A stretch of 34,176 bases of DNA from a virus. The DNA lies in IMG/VR virus record IMGVR_UViG_3300030117_002275, positions 1 through 34,176 of that record. One strand, 5' to 3'. Of this stretch, positions 1 through 31,819 are shown piece by piece; position 1 is the first letter of the stretch, and each line of letters starts with the position of its first letter. The notes under the pieces are model-generated. The model was not told where the DNA came from. It worked only from the letters and a program-made list of their open reading frames with translations, and did not search any database. Position numbers and translations under genes: made by a program.

Positions 1-345
1 CCAATCCTTTTCCTGTGGTTTCACATTACCTTCTGCGTCATACTTTCTACCGTCTGCGTGATTTGCGTATCTACGTGCTCGTGTAAACCCCATCTCAAGG
101 AACTTGCGACACATATCCATACCCACAAAGTCACCCTCTGAACGATACTCACAGTATAAGTCGTATATACGCTGAGAGGACACCCGCGCTTCGGGTATCG
201 TCTTAAATCTCCAGTGTCTACATATGTCATCCGTGTAGGGTCTTATCAGTAATACACCCTGTTCCCCTCTCCCGATACGATAACGAGAATCATTCGGAAC
301 AAACAGAGTGTTCTTATAGTCTATAGTATAGTCAAACTCTTTCAT
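1..345 (-). CDS. DUF4385-family protein, C-terminus cut by window edge
   Basis: The frame starts at ATG 345 and stays open for 115 codons to base 1, so the C-terminus lies outside the window. It begins MKEFDYTIDYKNTLF and contains YRIGRGEQGVLLIRPY, HWRFKT and GDFVGMDMCRKFLEMG followed by TRARRYANH. I recognise this block as the DUF4385 family, common in marine T4-like phages and of unknown function. Its start overlaps the stop of the upstream 39-aa membrane gene (ATGA), and it has no good Shine-Dalgarno of its own, so translation is probably coupled. Family assignment is from memory of the conserved block. Confidence 0.85.
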   Translation of the reverse strand, partial: MKEFDYTIDYKNTLFVPNDSRYRIGRGEQGVLLIRPYTDDICRHWRFKTIPEARVSSQRIYDLYCEYRSEGDFVGMDMCRKFLEMGFTRARRYANHADGRKYDAEGNVKPQEKDW

Positions 346-461
346 CGAAACAGTAAGTAGATAACTCCTCCCAGTATAATAAAGTCAGCACAGATACTCC
401 ATGCAATGTATGCACGGAATAACCATTTAGTAATCGTCTTTGAATACTTGGGAAATATCAT
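342..461 (-). CDS. Small single-pass membrane protein, 39 aa
   Basis: The ORF begins MIFPKYSKTITKWLF and ends with a hydrophobic stretch at about residues 18-38 (SICADFIILGGVIYLLF) that reads as one membrane span. The basic N-terminus suggests an N-in orientation. AGGTG lies 7 bases before the ATG. The stop overlaps the DUF4385 start by ATGA, so the two form an operon. A 7/8 match to the T4 late box sits just upstream. Function is not recognised; a holin or membrane accessory role is possible but unproven. Confidence 0.65.
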   Translation of the reverse strand: MIFPKYSKTITKWLFRAYIAWSICADFIILGGVIYLLFR

Positions 462-1622: not shown

Positions 1623-4121
1623 TTATGTAAAGAAGTCCTCTAGTGTACCCTGTGTGCCATATGAACTGTCAATCAACCACTGTGCCTTGTCTGTGATGAA
1701 TTTGAGTGGTTCTACGAAACTCTTCTCGAATTGTGTGTCATAGTCAATATACTTGTATATGTCAAGTTCTACTGGTAATGTGGTGATGAATGAGAAGGCA
1801 GACGACTGATATGTGTTAGGTTCTTTCATATGCACGAATCGTATCTTGTCACCCTCTTGTATATACGGATATCGATGCGATAGCGAGTTCTTCTCTACCA
1901 GATGATTATACAGTATCGCACCCTTGACATGTATCGGAGCGCCAGATGCAAAGAGTTTGTGTGTTCCACGAAACTTCTTTACACCGTTACAGGAGCGAGG
2001 ATATGCAATCTCTTCTGGTGATAGGTCCATAAACTCGGCGCGAAAGTCCTGTATGAAAGTGTTGAGTTCTCTCTCTGTTCCTCCCATGATGATATTCATC
2101 GCTTGTTTAATCTTCTCTCGACAGGGTGCGGGAGTAGACGATTTGACTGCTTCGATGCCCATCATCTTGAGTTTGGGTTCCTTATACCGCACTCCTTCAG
2201 AGTCATGCACATTCAGAATATACCGCTTCTTTGCTGTCCAGATACCCTTGTCTGCGATCACCTCGCGTTTCATGTACATTCTCTGGTCATATGCGTTCAT
2301 ATGTGATGCGAGTGCGTCATAGGACTTATCAATGAACGGTTCTAACTTCTCTTTTGCAAGTTTGTCCAGTGCAGAGACAATCTTACGTGAGTCTTTCTCA
2401 TCCCCAAACACTTTACTTACAAGCGTGTCAAACGTGATATAAACTGAGTCTGTGTCTGAAGCGATAACGTAGTCTACGTCCTTTGTGTCCAGTATCTTGT
2501 TGAGATGTATGTTGAGTGCCTTCTCTATCCATCGTATGGACAACTGACCAGCGGTAGTGATAGCGGTTGCAATCATCAGGTCATAGTATCGAAACCAGTT
2601 GTTACCAATCGCACCATAAGCGGAGTTCAGTGATATCTTCTTTGCCATCTGTATGTTGTTATACTTGGATATATCCTTGAGTAGTGCAGGGTTCTTTGTG
2701 TCCTCGTATTCCTGTTCTGCTTGCAACATGAGTTTCTTGTATTTCACACGGTCATTGTATATCTGTTCCATGAGTTCTGGCAGAAACCCCTTGAAATTCT
2801 TACGAAAGTATGCACCATTGGGAGTCATGCAATAAGCAGTGGTATTTTTTACCTTTCCCTCTAAAATCTTGTCTACGAGTTTGTCTCCCTGCATATGGCA
2901 ATCAGTTATAAGTGTCTCAGGCGATATATTATACTGCATGATAAGATGCGGATAAAGAGAGTTGAGGTCAAATGACATGACCCAGTTATGCATACCCACG
3001 AGCGGGTCTTTCACATACGCACCCTCGTACTTGTCAGTTTTCTCGTGTTCCTTCTTGGGTGGAATGACGATGTTCTTCTTACGTAGGTGATTGTAGATAA
3101 GAATGTCCCAGTATCGCACCTGTCCTAGAACGTCAGTTAGATTCACCTTTGCCTCATACGCCATCGTGACGATGAGTTCAATCAGTTTCATCTTGTCTTC
3201 TAACTTGTCAACAAGTTCCACGTCTGTTATGTTGTATTCGATAAAGGATTGATAGTCCTTTGTGTACCACTCGCGGAAAGTGTCGTATGGGTTACCGTCC
3301 TTACGTTCACCTAGTTCTACATACGCGATATAGTCCAGTGTGTACCGCTCCTGATTGGTGTACGTGAACTTACGATACAGGTCGTAATAGTCCAGTGCAG
3401 AGATACCGTCGATGGTGTAAATCTGGTGTGTGCGTCCCATCTGATACACTTGACGGTCAAACACGTTACGCCACGGCGACAGTCGCTTCACCTCATCCTC
3501 ATTGAACACACGTTTGATGCGATTTATCAAATATGGGAGATCGAAAAATTCTGTGTTCCATCCCGTGATAATATCGGGGGTGTTTTCCTCCCAGAACCCA
3601 AGGAACTTCTGTAGAAGGTGGTCCTCATCCTTACACTGAATATATGACACGTCATCGCGACTGTTCTCAAACTCATGCAGTCCAAACACCACGATACGTT
3701 TAGACTGATGGTTTTTGACCGTAATGGACAACAGAGGTTCTAACGCATCCTCTGGTTTTGGAAACCCGTTCTCGCACTCCACCTCAATGTCAATGGTGAC
3801 AATGAGCATCTGGTCCAAGTCCCACTCAACACGGTTTGGATACTCATCAGATATCCAACAATAGGGATACTGTGTGTTACCGAAGACAACATCTTGGTTC
3901 TCTCTGTCCGATATCCAATCTTTCGCCTCTCGAATGGAGTCGAAATGATGTGGTAATACCGCACGTCCATCGAGCGTGGTGTATCCCGTCTTCTCTCCTG
4001 TCGTAACAAGGTCAAATAGTGTGGGTTCATACCGAACACGTTTAGTCAGACGTTTACCGTCCTCGACATAACGCACAAGTAGCGAGTTGCCGTACTGAAG
4101 TACATTTGTGTAAAAAGACAT
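1623..4121 (-). CDS. 43: DNA polymerase, family B (T4 gp43-like)
   Basis: This is the replicative polymerase with 3'-5' proofreading. Visible motifs are Exo I DIEVE (D111, E113), Exo II GWNTEFFDLPYL, Exo III YNITDVELVD, Pol A FDLNSLYPHLI, Pol B KKISLNSAYGAIGN and Pol C ASDTDSVY, in the normal order. The frame is open upstream to 4172, but I choose ATG 4121 (832 aa): MSFYTNVLQYGNSLLVRYVE aligns with the T4 gp43 N-terminus, and a promoter lies inside the longer version. There is no Shine-Dalgarno at this start, and the -10 ends six bases before the ATG, so the message may be leaderless. It heads an operon with the DUF1289-like and methyltransferase genes. Confidence 0.97.
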   Translation of the reverse strand: MSFYTNVLQYGNSLLVRYVEDGKRLTKRVRYEPTLFDLVTTGEKTGYTTLDGRAVLPHHFDSIREAKDWISDRENQDVVFGNTQYPYCWISDEYPNRVEWDLDQMLIVTIDIEVECENGFPKPEDALEPLLSITVKNHQSKRIVVFGLHEFENSRDDVSYIQCKDEDHLLQKFLGFWEENTPDIITGWNTEFFDLPYLINRIKRVFNEDEVKRLSPWRNVFDRQVYQMGRTHQIYTIDGISALDYYDLYRKFTYTNQERYTLDYIAYVELGERKDGNPYDTFREWYTKDYQSFIEYNITDVELVDKLEDKMKLIELIVTMAYEAKVNLTDVLGQVRYWDILIYNHLRKKNIVIPPKKEHEKTDKYEGAYVKDPLVGMHNWVMSFDLNSLYPHLIMQYNISPETLITDCHMQGDKLVDKILEGKVKNTTAYCMTPNGAYFRKNFKGFLPELMEQIYNDRVKYKKLMLQAEQEYEDTKNPALLKDISKYNNIQMAKKISLNSAYGAIGNNWFRYYDLMIATAITTAGQLSIRWIEKALNIHLNKILDTKDVDYVIASDTDSVYITFDTLVSKVFGDEKDSRKIVSALDKLAKEKLEPFIDKSYDALASHMNAYDQRMYMKREVIADKGIWTAKKRYILNVHDSEGVRYKEPKLKMMGIEAVKSSTPAPCREKIKQAMNIIMGGTERELNTFIQDFRAEFMDLSPEEIAYPRSCNGVKKFRGTHKLFASGAPIHVKGAILYNHLVEKNSLSHRYPYIQEGDKIRFVHMKEPNTYQSSAFSFITTLPVELDIYKYIDYDTQFEKSFVEPLKFITDKAQWLIDSSYGTQGTLEDFFT

Positions 4122-10153: not shown

Positions 10154-10360
10154 TCATAAAAGTGCGGTATATTCAAAAGAATCACCAACCAACTCTTTAA
10201 ACTTATCAAGTGCCTCATTATAAGAAGAGTCAAATACCTCACACTCTTTGTAGTATTTGTTCTTAACGACCTCAATCTCGTATTTGTAGTTTCCACTATT
10301 CCAGAGATACATCGGCGTTACATCATCCAAAGAACTATAACCTTTTGCAATCAAATTCAT
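10154..10360 (-). CDS. Small phage protein, 68 aa
   Basis: It begins MNLIAKGYSSLDDVTPMYLW and ends DSFEYTALL. The start overlaps the upstream stop (TAATG), consistent with coupling. It is acidic and rich in tyrosine, with no recognisable domain. The promoter of the next unit begins 11 bases after its stop. Confidence 0.75.
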   Translation of the reverse strand: MNLIAKGYSSLDDVTPMYLWNSGNYKYEIEVVKNKYYKECEVFDSSYNEALDKFKELVGDSFEYTALL

Positions 10361-10557
10361 TATATAATCTCCACTATTTCAAAGTTTTTTTCATCTAACC
10401 ATCTCCACTCACCCGTCTTGACTGACTTGACAGGAGGGAGAGTTGGTTTGTTTGACATAGACACAACACCTGGCGGCAACTCTAGAACTTCCCAGAGTTC
10501 ACCGTGTTCACGGATACGGTTCTTACCGTGTCCAGTAATTCCTTTCAGTTTTATCAT
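10360..10557 (-). CDS. Small phage protein, 65 aa
   Basis: I start it at ATG 10557 (MIKLKGITGHGKNRIREHGE) because the promoter and leader lie just upstream; a longer in-frame start at 10596 would fall inside the -10 region. The motif GKNRIREHGELWEV and ELPPGVVSMSNKPTLP give a conserved-looking basic N-half. I recall similar short proteins in marine phages, function unknown. It forms a two-gene unit with the 68-aa gene. Confidence 0.75.
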   Translation of the reverse strand: MIKLKGITGHGKNRIREHGELWEVLELPPGVVSMSNKPTLPPVKSVKTGEWRWLDEKNFEIVEII

Positions 10558-21071: not shown

Positions 21072-21732
21072 GCGTTACAAAATCCTGTATCATGGGAAAT
21101 ATGGGTGCGATTTCCCAAGCACATGCCTTGGCAACATCGATGTGTTCTTTTTGTGTCCCATGTCCACTACGAAGTTCAATAAAATGCACCCATGAACGAA
21201 GAGTGCCGTTTACATACAGGCGAGACATGGTAAGTCCCTCTGGTAACACTGCTCTTGCCTGTTCTTTTGCGATACCCTTATCAATCGCCCAGTTGTAAAC
21301 CTCTTTTGATTTTTCTATCACTTCTTGCTGTTTCATATCCCACTCATCTTGGATGCCATGTGGTGTGGTATCAGTTGAGTTTTGTCTGTTCTTTGGGTCT
21401 TGCATTCTTGCACCACGCCGAACAAACTGAAGTTCTTTCACAGGGTTAGCATATCGTTGACTAAACTCTTGAAATGAGAACGAGCGGTGACGTAGTATCT
21501 GTCTTGCAATATCTCGCGTTGTCTCAACCTCAAGACATGCACTAACCATCTCCAGTGGTGACCAGTGTTTATGTTTGATGAGATACTTCAACAACTTTTC
21601 GGCGGTGTCTTTGTTCCTCTGGTTTGATGGATTGGAGATACGAGCACAGTATGCAATTAAATCTTGTGCATCATCTCCACCAACAAATCCCCCAGCGGGT
21701 ATCTGTGAGTATGATATAAGTTTTGCTGTCAT
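21064..21732 (-). CDS. thyX: Flavin-dependent thymidylate synthase ThyX
   Basis: The signature RHRSFSFQEFSQRY at 81-94 matches the ThyX motif RHRxxSxNExSxRY. Flanking SPLEMVSACLEVETTRDIAR and the C-terminal GTLRSWVHFIELRSGHGTQK complete the FAD/dUMP sites. It makes dTMP from dUMP using methylene-tetrahydrofolate and supports phage DNA synthesis. Length 222 aa is normal. The ATG lies only seven bases after the encoded CCA of the tRNA, with no Shine-Dalgarno between, so translation may start on an RNA 5' end made by tRNA processing. Confidence 0.96.
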   Translation of the reverse strand: MTAKLISYSQIPAGGFVGGDDAQDLIAYCARISNPSNQRNKDTAEKLLKYLIKHKHWSPLEMVSACLEVETTRDIARQILRHRSFSFQEFSQRYANPVKELQFVRRGARMQDPKNRQNSTDTTPHGIQDEWDMKQQEVIEKSKEVYNWAIDKGIAKEQARAVLPEGLTMSRLYVNGTLRSWVHFIELRSGHGTQKEHIDVAKACAWEIAPIFPMIQDFVTHD

Positions 21733-21739
21733 CTAAGAA

Positions 21740-21815
21740 TGGTGCCGCCGGAAGGAGTCGAACCCTCGACCTACTGATTACAAATCAGTCGCTCTACCGA
21801 CTGAGCTACAGCGGC
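21740..21815 (-). tRNA. tRNA-Thr (anticodon TGT), CCA encoded
   Basis: The 76-nt cloverleaf is complete: acceptor GCCGCTG with CGGCGGC (one G-U), D arm AGCTCAGTCGGTAGAGC, anticodon arm CTGATTTGTAATCAG with TGT, T arm GAGGGTTCGACTCCTTC region, and discriminator A plus CCA. It is transcribed between the 58-aa gene and thyX. It would read ACA and, by wobble, other threonine codons. Confidence 0.95.
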
Positions 21816-21823
21816 ACATCTCC

Positions 21824-22000
21824 CTACCTACGGTGGTTACGGTTATGTCGGCGGTTGTTGCGCGACATTGCGAGTTCTTTTACTCGCTTTGAGAGTTCGT
21901 CATTACTCTTGACGAGTTCTGCATTATCCCACTGTAACGCTTTTACAGTGTTTTCCAAATCGGCAACTTTTGCCTCAAAGAAACCTTCAACACGTTCCAT
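21824..22000 (-). CDS. Small coiled-coil protein with basic tail, 58 aa
   Basis: It begins MERVEGFFEAKVADLENTVK and ends with the basic tail MSRNNRRHNRNHRR. Heptad-spaced V/L residues through about 1-45 predict a coiled coil; the tail could bind RNA or DNA. GAGGAG lies eight bases before the ATG. It overlaps gp59 by 14 bases and ends nine bases before the tRNA, so it and the tRNA share a transcript. No family recognised. Confidence 0.7.
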   Translation of the reverse strand: MERVEGFFEAKVADLENTVKALQWDNAELVKSNDELSKRVKELAMSRNNRRHNRNHRR

Positions 22001-22580
22001 CTCTGGACTCCTCTATAAGATTTAATAATTTCATTTTATACTTGTTCTTGTCAATTGTCAAGAACCTTTTGTAATCATTCATGAATTTTTTTAAATCAGG
22101 CCATATAACATCGTCTCCCAATAATTTATCCCACCTGTCTACGTATGATACCAACTCATCTAAAATTACCAGTGTCTCAATTGATACACGTCCACCTAAA
22201 AACTCCTTGAGAAGTTTTGGATGGTTGTGCTTCTTCACCTCAAAGAGCGGTTCAAAATCTTTTACGAGTGGTTGCATCTCAACCACGAACATGTCAAAGA
22301 AACTGCTTCGTTTTAGTTTCCAAGACTCATAGTTCTCATCACTGAAGTTAGCAACGTAACCCTTTCTATCCTTAACGAAGTTAGACAGGAAGTAGTTTTT
22401 AATCTCTTCCTCTGACTTATATTTTTTGGATAGTCGAACAAAGAACCCACGGTCTTTACGTTTATAGAATGTGTCTCTGGATATACGAGTCTTACCCTTG
22501 TACTTTACAAAGTCATAGTTTGACTTACCAAAGTGCGCCTTCATTGCACAATACATCAAATATGTGTCAATAGGTTCCAT
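21987..22580 (-). CDS. 59: Helicase loader gp59
   Basis: The sequence aligns with T4 gp59: YLMYCAMKAHFGKSNYDFVK / YLMIKQHMNGKYDVIK, TRISRDTFYKRKDRGFFVRL / MRVSDAAYQKRRDKYFFQKL, and SIETLVILDELVSYVDRWDK / SFETFILLDSFLNIIDKHDE. Length 197 versus 217. It binds forked DNA and gp32 and loads gp41. All-helical and basic, as expected. Its start overlaps the lipoprotein stop by one base, and its last codons hold the promoter at 22033. Confidence 0.92.
   Translation of the reverse strand: MEPIDTYLMYCAMKAHFGKSNYDFVKYKGKTRISRDTFYKRKDRGFFVRLSKKYKSEEEIKNYFLSNFVKDRKGYVANFSDENYESWKLKRSSFFDMFVVEMQPLVKDFEPLFEVKKHNHPKLLKEFLGGRVSIETLVILDELVSYVDRWDKLLGDDVIWPDLKKFMNDYKRFLTIDKNKYKMKLLNLIEESRDGTC
22033..22061 (-). 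promoter_or_regulatory. Early promoter TTGACA-N17-TAAAAT
   Basis: The -35 is at 22056-22061 and the -10 at 22033-22038, inside the 3' end of gp59. It would drive the 58-aa gene, tRNA-Thr and thyX. Confidence 0.65.
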
Positions 22581-22885
22581 CAGTAAGATACTTTTGGTGG
22601 CATCCTAATCTTTTTTTGTTTCTCGTAAAAAGAGTCACACGGTTCACCAGTTGTTACTGGTCCTACCGTGCCATCCTTATTCACTTGTTTTATGTAAAAC
22701 TTCGCACCAACAGGTAAATCACCAGCATGAATACTCGTTGCGTACTCACCAGTTGGTGCAGGGTTTTGTGTCACAACATGACAACCAACCCATGCAAAGT
22801 TCATTGGTCCTTGATTCAATGCGACTTGGCCAGGTGTACATGCACCTAACAAGGTCACTACAGGTATTGCTAGTAACTTTTTCAT
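22580..22885 (-). CDS. Small lipoprotein, 101 aa
   Basis: The N-terminus MKKLLAIPVVTLLGAC is a lipoprotein signal with lipobox LGAC (Cys16). The mature part is short and beta-like (GAKFYIKQVNKDGTVGPVTT, GEPCDSFYEKQKK) with two further cysteines. It would be exported and lipid-anchored. It overlaps gp33 by four bases (ATGA). A lipoprotein between two core replication/transcription genes is unexpected; superinfection exclusion or lysis roles are known for phage lipoproteins, but nothing here shows which. Confidence 0.8.
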   Translation of the reverse strand: MKKLLAIPVVTLLGACTPGQVALNQGPMNFAWVGCHVVTQNPAPTGEYATSIHAGDLPVGAKFYIKQVNKDGTVGPVTTGEPCDSFYEKQKKIRMPPKVSY

Positions 22886-23133
22886 AATGGTAACTGCGCT
22901 CGCTTTGGTAAAAAATTTAACTCTCTTGCGTTTGCCTCAATCTTTTCTCTGAGACTTTTGGATATCAGGTTTCCCACAGTGTCAGGTTCGATACCCTGCC
23001 TAAAACAATAATCTAATACTGCTTCCATGTGAGTGATGTTTTTTTCACTTGCAATTTTTTCTATCTCAAGTGAAAAGGTCTTGGCGGTGTTCAATGACAA
23101 AATACTCTCCTCAAAAGTTGGGGGGTTGACCAT
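22882..23133 (-). CDS. 33: Late transcription coactivator gp33-like, 83 aa
   Basis: The block IEKIASEKNITHMEAVLDYC followed by SKSLREKIEANARELNFLP lines up with the T4 gp33 core (IIEKMVEEFGMSYLEATTAF ... IIEKIQSEAIDENLLRP). gp33 bridges RNA polymerase and the sliding clamp and works with gp55 at TATAAATA promoters, which are present in this window. It is shorter than T4 gp33 (112 aa). It follows directly on the tmRNA coding piece, sharing the composite promoter at 23561-23591. Confidence 0.8.
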   Translation of the reverse strand: MVNPPTFEESILSLNTAKTFSLEIEKIASEKNITHMEAVLDYCFRQGIEPDTVGNLISKSLREKIEANARELNFLPKRAQLPL

Positions 23134-23149
23134 GACCCCCCGCGCATCT

Positions 23150-23367
23150 TTAGGTGATGACCCCTGCTGCGTCCGAAGTCGATATACAGCAATAAGGTGG
23201 GGATATTCTGTTACTAGGAACCCCCGAAACCCTATCCGATTTACGCTGCTAGAGCGTAATCTTGAGATGCAAAATTATCGTTTGCATTTACTAATTTGAC
23301 CAATAACGCAGTCACCCGACATCTCTCCACTTCTCTATTCCACGCCAGTCGATCCTATTTCGCCCCC
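23150..23367 (-). ncRNA. tmRNA coding piece (5' domain, tag, pseudoknots)
   Basis: It starts GGGGGCGAAATAGGATCGAC, the typical tmRNA 5' domain with D-loop-like GGATCGAC. After the tag, GGATA...TATCC and GCTG...CAGC form helices expected for downstream pseudoknots. The 3' end is not defined exactly and approaches the gp33 ribosome site. Confidence 0.85.
23241..23285 (-). CDS. tmRNA proteolysis tag ANDNFASQDYALAA
   Basis: The resume codon is GCA at 23285-23283 and the stop TAA at 23243-23241. The 14-residue tag starts ANDNFA and ends ALAA, the C-terminal signal read by ClpXP-type proteases. Confidence 0.93.
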   Translation of the reverse strand, partial: ANDNFASQDYALAA

Positions 23368-23379
23368 CTCATAAAGAGA

Positions 23380-23478
23380 CTACATGCAAAGGTCATCATA
23401 ATCCACATTGCACTCTCTACGATAGTTTGCCTCAACTGAGTTTTTTGTTCCGAAAAACTTTAAAATTAGTTTTAACAC
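23380..23478 (-). CDS. 32-aa ORF inside the tmRNA intervening segment
   Basis: A GTG start is preceded at six bases by AAGGAG. The product begins MLKLILKFFGTKNSVEANY and continues RRECNVDYDDLCM, ending 12 bases before the coding piece. It occupies nearly all of the segment normally discarded when the split tmRNA matures. A hydrophobic/basic N-terminus and two cysteines are visible. No homologue is recognised; good ribosome site and tight fit are the evidence. Confidence 0.6.
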   Translation of the reverse strand: MLKLILKFFGTKNSVEANYRRECNVDYDDLCM

Positions 23479-23491
23479 TGCAATCTCCTTA

Positions 23492-23540
23492 TGGTGGAGG
23501 CGGGGGGTATTGCACCCCCGTCCTGTACGTCTTTCAATCC
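23492..23540 (-). ncRNA. tmRNA acceptor piece
   Basis: It contains the T arm GGGGG-TGCAATA-CCCCC and acceptor CGCCTCC-A-CCA, with CCA encoded. The T-loop TGCAATA has G in place of the usual U at position 55. The 5' end is estimated from the predicted start at about 23555. Confidence 0.85.
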
Positions 23541-23560
23541 GTATCAACAAAATGTAACTA

Positions 23561-23591
23561 TATTTATATCATACAGTAATTACTTTGTCAA
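23561..23591 (-). promoter_or_regulatory. Composite early/late promoter of tmRNA-gp33 unit
   Basis: TTGACA (23586-23591) lies 17 bases from TATAAA (23563-23568), and the same bases extended give the perfect late box TATAAATA (23561-23568). Both predict a start at about 23555-23556. The locus can thus be transcribed early and late. Confidence 0.8.
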
Positions 23592-23936
23592 GTAACTTAT
23601 CGGTGTACCCCTAATTTTTTCAACAAAATCAGTAATCTCTAAATTTGTTCCAACGCTAACTATACAGGCAACACCACCAGTAGGCATGTATTCAAGAACT
23701 GTCATGGTCTTTTTCTTTTTGTTAATCAATAAAATGCTGCTGGTCCCCGCCTCCTCTGTAGTCCAAGATGCAAAGGGCACTTCTCCAGTGTGATTCGTTA
23801 TCGTATTGTAGATAGCAACACCATCTCCACAGACCACAGGTTTGGGCATCATTATCCCTTCAATTGTGGGTTGCCCCTCCTCTGCAAAAGAGGGTGTACT
23901 AAGCAGCAGTGCTATTAAGAATACTAGATACTTCAT
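23580..23936 (-). CDS. Exported protein with signal peptide, 118 aa
   Basis: The start at 23936 gives MKYLVFLIALLLSTPSFAEE, a clear Sec signal with cleavage after SFA. The mature part (IEGIMMPKPVVCGDGVAIYN, ILLINKKKKTMTVLEYMPTG) has two cysteines and is beta-rich. It resembles small periplasmic proteins seen in marine T4-like phages, function unknown. It overlaps the nuclease gene by 38 bases, and its stop lies inside the tmRNA promoter. Confidence 0.8.
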   Translation of the reverse strand: MKYLVFLIALLLSTPSFAEEGQPTIEGIMMPKPVVCGDGVAIYNTITNHTGEVPFASWTTEEAGTSSILLINKKKKTMTVLEYMPTGGVACIVSVGTNLEITDFVEKIRGTPISYLTK

Positions 23937-24591
23937 TTCGTTCTCTCCATTCTGCAACAGAATCGATTAACGCACCTAGATAATTGTTTTTGTCTTTGAT
24001 AAATTCTTGAACAGTTCCGTCCTCTGTAACAACGAGGATAACTACTTGCGATATTTCTATCCCTGTTCTCTCTCCGAACATTTCTGCATACGCAGAACCT
24101 TGAATGTAATAATTTTCATTCCAATCATCATTGCGTTCTTTAGAAGACGTTTTGAAGTCTATAATGGATGGTATACCTTTATATCCAGCAATACAGTCTA
24201 CTCGACCCGCTACCTTATATTTATCACTGTATAGTCCTGCTTCCTGTGCATAGATGTTATCTATATTGCACAGAACACTATCCTTTAACTGGTTAAACAG
24301 GCAATACGGTAAGAAATTCTTTTTATGTTTCTCAGTATCAAAATCATTATTAAGGTAATCCTCACACATATGATGCACTTTAGTACCGCGTGATGCAGCG
24401 GTTCTTGCTACGTAGTTCGCAACCTCATCACCAACACGTTTACGCCATTCATGTAGTCCCTTCTTATTACGAATAGATAAGACTGTTGTAATGGAAGGAT
24501 ACTTGTTACCCTCTGGTGTTTCATATAAACGAACACCATCACTGTTTCTTGCCTTTACGGGTGGCAACTCCACTGGTGTATGATTAAACAT
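23899..24591 (-). CDS. PD-(D/E)XK exonuclease (RecB/Cas4-like), 230 aa
   Basis: Active-site residues are readable: H74 in GTKVHHMCEDYL, D132 in AGRVDCIAGYKG, D145-x-K147 in IIDFKTS, and the QxxxY motif Q164-Y168 (YYIQGSAYAEMF). This is the nuclease order of RecB-type enzymes. I recall this family in many marine T4-like phages, probably acting on DNA ends in recombination or host DNA breakdown. It overlaps the lysozyme start by one base. Confidence 0.88.
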   Translation of the reverse strand: MFNHTPVELPPVKARNSDGVRLYETPEGNKYPSITTVLSIRNKKGLHEWRKRVGDEVANYVARTAASRGTKVHHMCEDYLNNDFDTEKHKKNFLPYCLFNQLKDSVLCNIDNIYAQEAGLYSDKYKVAGRVDCIAGYKGIPSIIDFKTSSKERNDDWNENYYIQGSAYAEMFGERTGIEISQVVILVVTEDGTVQEFIKDKNNYLGALIDSVAEWRERNEVSSILNSTAA

Positions 24592-25035: not shown

Positions 25036-25686
25036 TTAGTTCTTCCTAAAAGTTATATTGCCAGACACGCTTATTCTATACTCATCTGACTGATTTGGTT
25101 CTACTGAGTGTCTCAACCATGCGGGAAACATTATCATACGGCCAGGTATTGGTAACCAATATACTTCCTGTCCATATTCCTCTGGACGTTCACCCTGCCA
25201 ACCTTTTTCTGGATTCTTTGTGAAAGGTAATTGGACTGCCATTGCTTGTTCGCGAGGGTCTTCAAATGAGAGCATACCACACTTCTCAGGACACTGAACA
25301 TAGTAGACAAAACTTAGATGAGCGCCAGGATGTGTGTGAGTCTTGTTGTACGAACCCTTCGTATTCACGTTGAACCACATGGCATCAATCTCTGCTGGAT
25401 AATCTTCATCTATCTTGAGTGCTTCATGAAGGTCATCTGCAAAAGATTGCACTTCCCACTTCAACCCTGTGTGATGTACAAACTCACTCTGCCAACCAAA
25501 GATGTTAGATTTTACTACACCTTTCTCTTTAGTCATCTCTAAAATGTCTTTGGACCACTCATCATTTTTCTTTTCGTATTCAACTATGTCTCTGTAGTAG
25601 ACCATAGTTGGAAAAGACATTTTTCCACCGATTATACCCCTCTGGTCTAGAGCAATATCTTGTGCAAATTTTTCATTTTTGTTCAT
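25036..25686 (-). CDS. 2OG-Fe(II) oxygenase (TIGR02466-like), 216 aa
   Basis: Iron ligands are H117-T-H119 region in THTHPGAHLSFVYYV and H193 in FPAWLRHSVEPNQ, with R204 for 2-oxoglutarate (DEYRISVSGNI). The pattern 'FPAWLRHSV.P....RISVSGN' is diagnostic for this marine phage oxygenase group. Substrate unknown. The ATG at 25686 follows a rubredoxin-like gene by 11 bases, which suggests a possible electron-transfer link. Confidence 0.88.
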   Translation of the reverse strand: MNKNEKFAQDIALDQRGIIGGKMSFPTMVYYRDIVEYEKKNDEWSKDILEMTKEKGVVKSNIFGWQSEFVHHTGLKWEVQSFADDLHEALKIDEDYPAEIDAMWFNVNTKGSYNKTHTHPGAHLSFVYYVQCPEKCGMLSFEDPREQAMAVQLPFTKNPEKGWQGERPEEYGQEVYWLPIPGRMIMFPAWLRHSVEPNQSDEYRISVSGNITFRKN

Positions 25687-31144: not shown

Positions 31145-31819
31145 CTATTTATCGAACACAATCTTTGCGTTAAAACTCATCATTCGTCTCTCTCCCTCAC
31201 AAGTAAACGGATAGACAAGATGTTTCAACCAAGCAGGGAACACTAAAAACTTACCGACCTCTGGTTGGAACTTAACACTGTCACTTCTGAAGTTATCTAC
31301 ATTTCCAAACGCAAACTCAATCATGCCTTTAGCGGGTGCATGGTCATCTAAATCATCAACCATGTTGTCAGGAACTTTCAAATATATCGCTGCAGAGAAA
31401 TCTCCCGTGTGAAAATGTATGGGATTAAAGTCCCCTGCATATTGACTGACCACCCAACTCTGTGTCAAATGTATATTCTCAATTGTTGGCACTCCACCAT
31501 CGTTAGGATTTATTTGAGTGTATCCCACTTGGTTAGTGTAAATACGAGCACGATTTTTTGCCATGTTATATTTCAGATAGTCTAGACACCCCTGCTTCAT
31601 TATATTTAAAAGATACTCACGGTGTTTCTGTTTTGTAATGGGAACTTGAACTTCATTCCTAACCTTACCTACAAGGTTATTAGAAAAGTCCCATTTCTTA
31701 ATCTGTTCATCATCAGATAGAATCTCATCTGCCTTCTTGTTGATTAGGTCAACAAATTTCTTTGGCACGGTTGTCTCCATAATCGCTGGAGAGAACGGTT
31801 CATGAAACTTCGGGGTCAT
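31145..31819 (-). CDS. 2OG-Fe(II) oxygenase (TIGR02466-like), 224 aa
   Basis: Iron ligands appear as H135-F-H137/D140 in FNPIHFHTGDFSAAIYLKVP, H200 in VFPAWLKHLVYPF, and R211 near EGERRMMSFNAKIVF for 2-oxoglutarate. It is a second member of the group found at 25036, about the same length. GGAAGAAG precedes the ATG. Substrate unknown. It overlaps the 137-aa gene by 20 bases. Confidence 0.87.
   Translation of the reverse strand: MTPKFHEPFSPAIMETTVPKKFVDLINKKADEILSDDEQIKKWDFSNNLVGKVRNEVQVPITKQKHREYLLNIMKQGCLDYLKYNMAKNRARIYTNQVGYTQINPNDGGVPTIENIHLTQSWVVSQYAGDFNPIHFHTGDFSAAIYLKVPDNMVDDLDDHAPAKGMIEFAFGNVDNFRSDSVKFQPEVGKFLVFPAWLKHLVYPFTCEGERRMMSFNAKIVFDK

Follow-up and report, generated by a model that had tools for sequence, protein, structure and literature searches.

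The stretch of DNA analysed here, hereafter the window, is a linear virus contig of 34 kb (34,176 nucleotides). It encodes DNA polymerase B, RecA, a gp41-type helicase, gp32, ThyX, a gp59 loader and a gp33 coactivator, together with an exonuclease, PhoH, RNase H and baseplate and tail proteins. This gene content identifies the window as a fragment of a T4-like phage of the marine Melnitz/pelagimyophage type, for which the nearest sequenced isolates are Melnitz (host OM43) and HTVC008M (host SAR11). The window also carries two 2OG-Fe(II) oxygenase genes at 25036–25686 and 31145–31819, both on the minus strand. Directly upstream of the gene for gp33, the late-transcription coactivator, lies a permuted tmRNA gene, the features of which are collected in Table 1.

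Table 1. Features of the tmRNA locus and of a related free-standing gene in the window
Feature	Position	Strand	Basis or remark
Promoter-like element, TTGACA - 17 nt - TATAAATA	23561..23591	-	Consensus match, read in sequence
Acceptor piece (tRNA-like 3' part, T-arm, encoded CCA)	23492..23551	-	RF04321/RF01849 match
Intervening spacer (IVS), 124 nt	23368..23491	-	Ends pair and extend the acceptor stem in the precursor
Ribosome-binding site AAGGAG of the candidate ORF	23485-23490	-	Read in sequence
Candidate small ORF in the IVS, 32 aa, MLKLILKFFGTKNSVEANYRRECNVDYDDLCM, GTG start	23380..23478	-	Frame fills the spacer
Coding (mRNA-like) piece, begins GGGGGCGAAAUAGGAUCGAC	23196..23367	-	Covariance match
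Tag frame ANDNFASQDYALAA + UAA	23241..23285	-	ARAGORN; tmRNA_permuted (RF04321) match ends at UAA
Hairpin GGGGGGU-CAUGGUCA-ACCCCCC, then AACUUUU	23120..23141	-	7 bp, GC-rich, -14.9 kcal/mol
gp33-type coactivator	22882..23100	-	Pfam Trans_coact 6.7e-18; PHROG 254
Free-standing 39-aa mini-protein family member	342..461	-	tblastn 2e-10 and context

Rfam models and ARAGORN place a permuted tmRNA of the alphaproteobacterial type at 23583–23196 (-). RF01849 (alpha_tmRNA) matches 23595–23196 (-) with 120.3 bits (E = 1.6e-32) and RF04321 (tmRNA_permuted) matches 23551–23241 (-) with 119 bits, both above the respective gathering scores of 50 and 47, and an independent ARAGORN call places a permuted tmRNA at 23150–23583. 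The covariance search that a sequence-only reading of this DNA had suggested as a check is thus significant, and all of the tmRNA elements described in that reading were found on the minus strand. The acceptor piece ends in CCA (last base 23492) and is followed by the spacer, the length of which had been read exactly, and by the coding piece (first base 23367). The acceptor stem GGGGGCG/CGCCUCC forms between the two pieces, as had been proposed; all 7 bp are paired, including the G3–U70 wobble of alanine identity. G–U is present at 3:70 in 118/118 phage copies and several stem variants have paired changes on both sides, in a tally for which ARAGORN and the script used both favour pairing. The tag frame is open and has the expected ALAA ending, a ClpXP-type Ala-Ala end followed by the UAA stop. 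The precursor has a predicted folding energy of -67.6 kcal/mol, which lies at z = -3.55 relative to dinucleotide shuffles, and in the predicted structure the ends of the spacer pair so as to continue the acceptor stem. The T-loop, UGCAAUA, does have G at position 55, to which attention had been drawn. It is not an oddity, however, since G55 is universal among the tabulated phage and bacterial copies (GGCAGUA, GGCGGUA, UGCGAUA and similar).

The TATAAATA element matches the consensus of a sigma-70 -10 box overlapping a T4-type late promoter. It is present in 48 of 93 distinct phage tmRNA upstream regions compared with 1.8% of random windows taken at these loci; the TTGAC..-16/18-TATAAT-like pair occurs in 46 of the 93 compared with 2.1% of random windows. 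On the 3' side, the GC-rich hairpin probably marks where the tmRNA unit ends, as its boundary or terminator. Alignment with relatives places the start of gp33 better at TTG 23100 than at the usual ATG 23133, which lies inside this hairpin. The hairpin is kept in the closest relatives only (L014, L015 and L065), and we rejected it as a general feature of phage tmRNA loci. A tRNA-Thr(UGU) gene is located at 21740–21815 (-), between ThyX and gp59, and in many relatives a tRNA likewise lies downstream of the tmRNA at a comparable position.

The order exonuclease, small ORF, tmRNA, gp33 is common to the window, Melnitz and Mosig; in the cyanophages S-PM2 and Syn1, by contrast, the exonuclease adjoins gp33 and no tmRNA is annotated there. 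We collected 80 viral loci by means of gp33 alone. In 49 of these ARAGORN identified a tmRNA upstream of gp33 on the same strand, tags were read by hand in 16 more and the covariance model revealed a tmRNA in L071 and L079; the remainder are mostly contig ends. Weak, partly sub-threshold matches upstream of gp33 in L069 (1111–1225) and L072 (3211–3325), each of 34 bits, and a weak match in L078 (3338–3551; 54 bits) are probably decaying tmRNA copies. The SAR11 phage HTVC008M (KC465899) has a tmRNA at 3097–3455, upstream of gp33 and with the tag ANFNEYALAA, that is not annotated in the public record.

The spacers of the phage genes have a median length of 112 nt, compared with 30 nt in other alphaproteobacteria and 7 nt (range 6–12 nt) in SAR11. 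In 61 distinct viral spacers they encode a single family of mini-proteins of 38–44 residues with the pattern MKNPLV..(V/I)S..M...Y..WS.CAD...L.G(I/V)..., for which one membrane helix is predicted by eye. The stop codon of this mini-gene always lies exactly 1 nt before the coding piece. A dN/dS of about 0.19 over 24 distinct spacers indicates purifying selection, and pN/pS, calculated without the part overlapped by the upstream frame, is 0.20 in frame as against 1.06 and 4.3 in the shifted frames. Related phages also encode the family at other sites, as an ordinary gene; its position in L071 and L079 is just upstream of the tmRNA and not within it, and the stop codon of the free-standing member in the window overlaps the next start (ATGA). 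Because the family is encoded outside the spacer as well, we regard it as a real protein gene. Searches of Pfam and PHROGs profiles with the spacer mini-proteins mostly gave no match.

Other spacers hold other genes. That of L049 (3922–4658) contains a 131-aa homing-endonuclease-like frame (PHROG 655, 4.7e-14) and that of L061 (3745–4340) an endonuclease frame (PHROG 3322, 1.2e-19), the acceptor–coding pairing in L061 being assigned by position alone. Further families of 62–77 aa are encoded in the spacers of L138/L109, L145/L248, L185/L194 and L112/L435, and three of these families display in-frame pN/pS values of 0.11–0.36. Nearly every spacer longer than 195 nt in the related phages carries a gene, as do 61 shorter ones; many of those below 100 nt have no frame. 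Nested spacer genes are very probably real in this group of phages. A text search of openly accessible literature, and the papers most likely to report such genes, made no reference to proteins encoded in the intervening segment, and the spacer genes are apparently a feature so far undescribed. In the spacers of L003, L026 and L034, and in others like them, a second short frame (e.g. MEEMISGDSDEESSSKKNIG..) begins close to the first ribosome-binding site, at an offset of about 13. It covers the beginning of the membrane mini-gene, read in a different frame, and is possibly a leader for coupled translation.

The spacer of the window begins UAAGGAG directly after CCA and is filled by a frame of its own, which the sequence-only reading had overlooked. 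The length of this frame is weakly unusual in a shuffle test of the longest ORF (P = 0.039), and a Shine–Dalgarno sequence together with an ORF of at least 32 codons was obtained in none of 5000 dinucleotide shuffles. Sequence and pattern searches found no homologs of the 32-aa frame and we therefore treat it as a candidate only. A single pattern match, in L531, was rejected as it lies in another context and without a tmRNA. The AAGGAG sequence sits in the predicted stem that extends the acceptor arm, and since the ribosome-binding site coincides with paired bases it could be kept for folding alone. Conservation for folding, for translation or for a switch between the two would each fit the predicted structure.

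The frame may be a product of chance, with AAGGAG merely a part of the extended stem. We consider this quite possible, at rather less than an even chance: no homolog was found, the longest-ORF test is weak alone and many spacers shorter than 100 nt lack a frame, but a Shine–Dalgarno sequence with a frame this long did not arise by shuffling, and nearly all related spacers above 195 nt, with the 61 shorter ones, hold real genes. That the window's 32-codon frame is translated has about an even chance.

The N-terminal part of the tmRNA tag is the part bound by the adaptor SspB in Caulobacter and E. coli. The motif ANDN is present in 65/65 of the tags read at gp33-anchored viral loci and likewise in the window. 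Our pattern scans of viral sequences and genomes required A-N-D in the pattern itself, and for this reason the tag counts are drawn only from the gp33-anchored loci and the family searches. The SAR11 order was recognised by the SAR11 16S probe site and was anchored on genome G423. SAR11 tags have nine residues, ANDN in 0/50 cases, and SspB was found in 0/40 SAR11 genomes and in 253/289 genomes of the class sample. In an order of small genomes, that of G014, which we rejected as SAR11 since the SAR11 16S probe site is absent, SspB is present in 20/32 and ANDN in 16/17 tags. Among the 25 class-sample genomes with readable tags, ANDN occurs in 21/22 with SspB and in 0/3 without it, kinship being ignored in this count. 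The tmRNA of G423, at 10,219–10,520, is at the published position for P. ubique (PMC2704228).

The phage tags show a similar pattern. Both HTVC008M and Mosig (GEDNFALAA), which infect SAR11, are without ANDN; the motif is kept in phages of Rhodobacter and Mesorhizobium and in Melnitz, and the tag of an Erythrobacter phage has VNDN. The simplest reading of these sequences is that phage tags follow the adaptor of the host, with ANDN retained where SspB is present and lost in the SAR11 systems that lack it. Shared ancestry could explain part of the association, since the genomes are related and the isolate phages few. As the window tag has ANDN, and SAR11 and the two SAR11 phages do not, the host of the window phage is probably an SspB-bearing bacterium other than SAR11. 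The GC content agrees with this, at 41% for the window and 34% for the regions from HTVC008M and Mosig. An alphaproteobacterial host, which the sequence-only reading had deduced from the type of RNA, is unproven; the host cannot be read from the type of RNA because Melnitz, with a similar tmRNA, infects OM43, which is not alphaproteobacterial (PMC9004378).

Two further observations concern the tags and their fate. Long tags of 29–32 aa (e.g. ANDNFFAADNVVYANFGLQKAAVSYEDYALAA) that begin with ANDN and end in ALAA are present in L020, L138, L168, L182 and L199. In the Erythrobacter phages vB_EliS-L02 and XM05 a gene for a proteasome/HslV-type peptidase follows within about 0.5–0.8 kb, downstream of the tmRNA in L02 and, in XM05, of an acceptor match that resembles a tmRNA; the two are possibly a phage-owned tag-and-destroy pair.

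The course of events that we infer, from expression of the locus to breakdown of the tagged proteins, is as follows; translation of the 32-codon frame belongs to the same inferred part. Transcription would start at the locus's own promoter ahead of gp33, which in appearance is both early (sigma-70) and T4-type late. The precursor would fold with the acceptor stem continued through the ends of the spacer, host tRNA-processing nucleases would excise the spacer and the acceptor and coding pieces would remain paired. Alanyl-tRNA synthetase, recognizing G3–U70, would charge the paired tmRNA with alanine, after which it would bind host SmpB and be taken into ribosomes that have stalled, where A-ANDNFASQDYALAA would be appended and the ribosome set free. 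Fragments so tagged would pass to host ClpXP by way of the ALAA end, probably with help from host SspB reading the ANDN end. Neither SmpB nor SspB was found in the ten phage records searched, including the complete Melnitz, HTVC008M and Mosig genomes; we rejected phage-encoded partners, and those of the host are needed. In this phage group the spacer would in addition house very small genes, for which either the precursor or the excised segment would act as the message.

The likely benefit is that ribosomes are kept free while phage nucleases break messages. The main functional rival is that the tmRNA acts chiefly as a weapon or recycler, tagging nascent host proteins for degradation and so freeing amino acids, which was one of the options proposed for Melnitz (PMC9004378). 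An early-type promoter and the retention of the ClpXP-read ALAA end, with ANDN in the non-SAR11 phages, would suit such turnover of host proteins, yet a tmRNA acts on stalled ribosomes and cannot itself choose host over phage messages. The promoter, moreover, has a perfect late-type -10, so that expression may span the infection. We therefore consider a primary role in host protein turnover unlikely. Rescue and tagging during infection, by a phage-borne two-piece tmRNA of alphaproteobacterial type, is the most plausible use on present sequence evidence, in line with the earlier proposal that the phage brings its own ribosome-rescue RNA; replacement of a degraded host tmRNA, raised in the same proposal, is conceivable.

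A SAR11 origin has been suggested for the Melnitz tmRNA, with phage tmRNAs placed near those of SAR11 (PMC9004378), and among the nearest isolates by gp33 is the SAR11 phage HTVC008M (63%). For the window a SAR11-derived tmRNA, and hence a SAR11 phage, appears improbable. A tree of 256 tmRNAs puts the window copy among 57 sequences that make up an all-phage clade (support 0.83), and the SAR11 tmRNAs form a separate clade of their own. The short tags of SAR11 without ANDN, the spacers of 6–12 nt, the higher GC content of the window and the non-ANDN tags of the two SAR11 phages are likewise against it. We rejected this derivation as the window copy neither groups with SAR11 nor shares the short non-ANDN tag.

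The closest phage tmRNA shares 85% identity with that of the window; for non-SAR11 bacteria the best value is 69% and for SAR11 it is 62%. That the gene is a recently captured host passenger or a decaying, functionless relic is very improbable: the near- or sub-threshold fragments in L069, L072 and L078 indicate that tmRNA loss does occur, but the window copy has intact pairing, G3–U70, an open tag and a clear promoter, the same locus is kept in most relatives and both the all-phage clade and these identities set it apart from bacterial copies. Conservation of the locus, the all-phage clade and the enrichment of the promoter together argue for a long-held and probably expressed phage gene.

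Permuted tmRNAs were also observed on contigs PBDU01000009 (L248/L437) and NHBR02000136 (L294/L436), which belong to MAGs labelled 'Euryarchaeota' and 'Muricauda', respectively. Since these two contigs also carry phage genes for a single-strand binding protein, clamp and clamp loader, the contigs are phage sequences misbinned into the MAGs. Such misbinning may account for some of the 'archaeal' tmRNAs that have been reported (PMC11915505).

We conclude with good confidence that the locus is a working, phage-owned transcription unit for a two-piece tmRNA, with the spacer as a pocket for small genes. Structure, tag, synteny, conservation of the promoter, selection on the spacer genes of relatives and the association of tag with SspB support this at the level of sequence. 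The fuller proposal, that viral spacers are nests for mini-genes, that the tag is matched to the host adaptor and that the 32-aa frame of the window is one such gene, has in our judgement an even chance of being correct. If it holds, the ribosome-rescue RNA and a very small protein are both expressed from one promoter. Selected protein genes within a segment that is expected to be removed raise the matter of how a precursor shares folding, processing and translation. The tag/SspB pattern provides a genome-based clue to host range and bears on whether phages want tagged proteins to be destroyed in the manner of the host. Phage tmRNAs are a known kind of gene, to the interest of which the nested spacer genes and the match of tag to adaptor add.

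The window tmRNA as such belongs to a kind of gene already known, since Melnitz and its relatives were reported in 2022 to carry a two-piece tmRNA beside gp33, in a study that counted 53 such tmRNAs among phage genomes (PMC9004378). The nested spacer genes are not described in that report. The ssrA genes of Melnitz (MZ577095) and Mosig (MT647606), which share with the window phage the virus group Kyanoviridae, resemble that of the window in consisting of two pieces, in their place just upstream of gp33 and in the ALAA end. The tags differ, being ANDNYVPVDYALAA in Melnitz and, without ANDN, the sequence given above in Mosig. Melnitz has a glutamine riboswitch after the tmRNA gene, an arrangement that is common at the 3' side and not defining (PMC9004378). 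In the window a search of 21500–24500 gave no match to this riboswitch even at an E value of 1, and we rejected its presence at the locus.

The Caulobacter-type permuted tmRNA (RF01849/RF04321) shares with the window the gene order, the G3–U70 stem, T-loop G55, the GGAUCGAC element and the ANDN...ALAA tag. The window copy scores lower than the bacterial alpha_tmRNA copies (120 compared with about 184–259 bits), and its spacer is much longer than those of the bacterial alphaproteobacterial copies. Complete tmRNA genes in lytic phages are also known, as here, from mycobacteriophages of the Bxz1 group and Bacillus phage G (PMC4131195); these lie outside the permuted forms discussed here and have other hosts and loci. 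A parallel to the nested genes is provided by bacterial tmRNA genes interrupted by group I introns that carry homing endonucleases, where protein-coding DNA likewise lies within the gene and is absent from the mature RNA (PMC11915505). There the carrier is self-splicing and located in the T-loop, whereas in the phages it is the ordinary intervening segment, with no intron, and unlike the intron-borne endonucleases (PMC11915505) the gene carried in the phage spacer usually encodes a non-endonuclease mini-protein.
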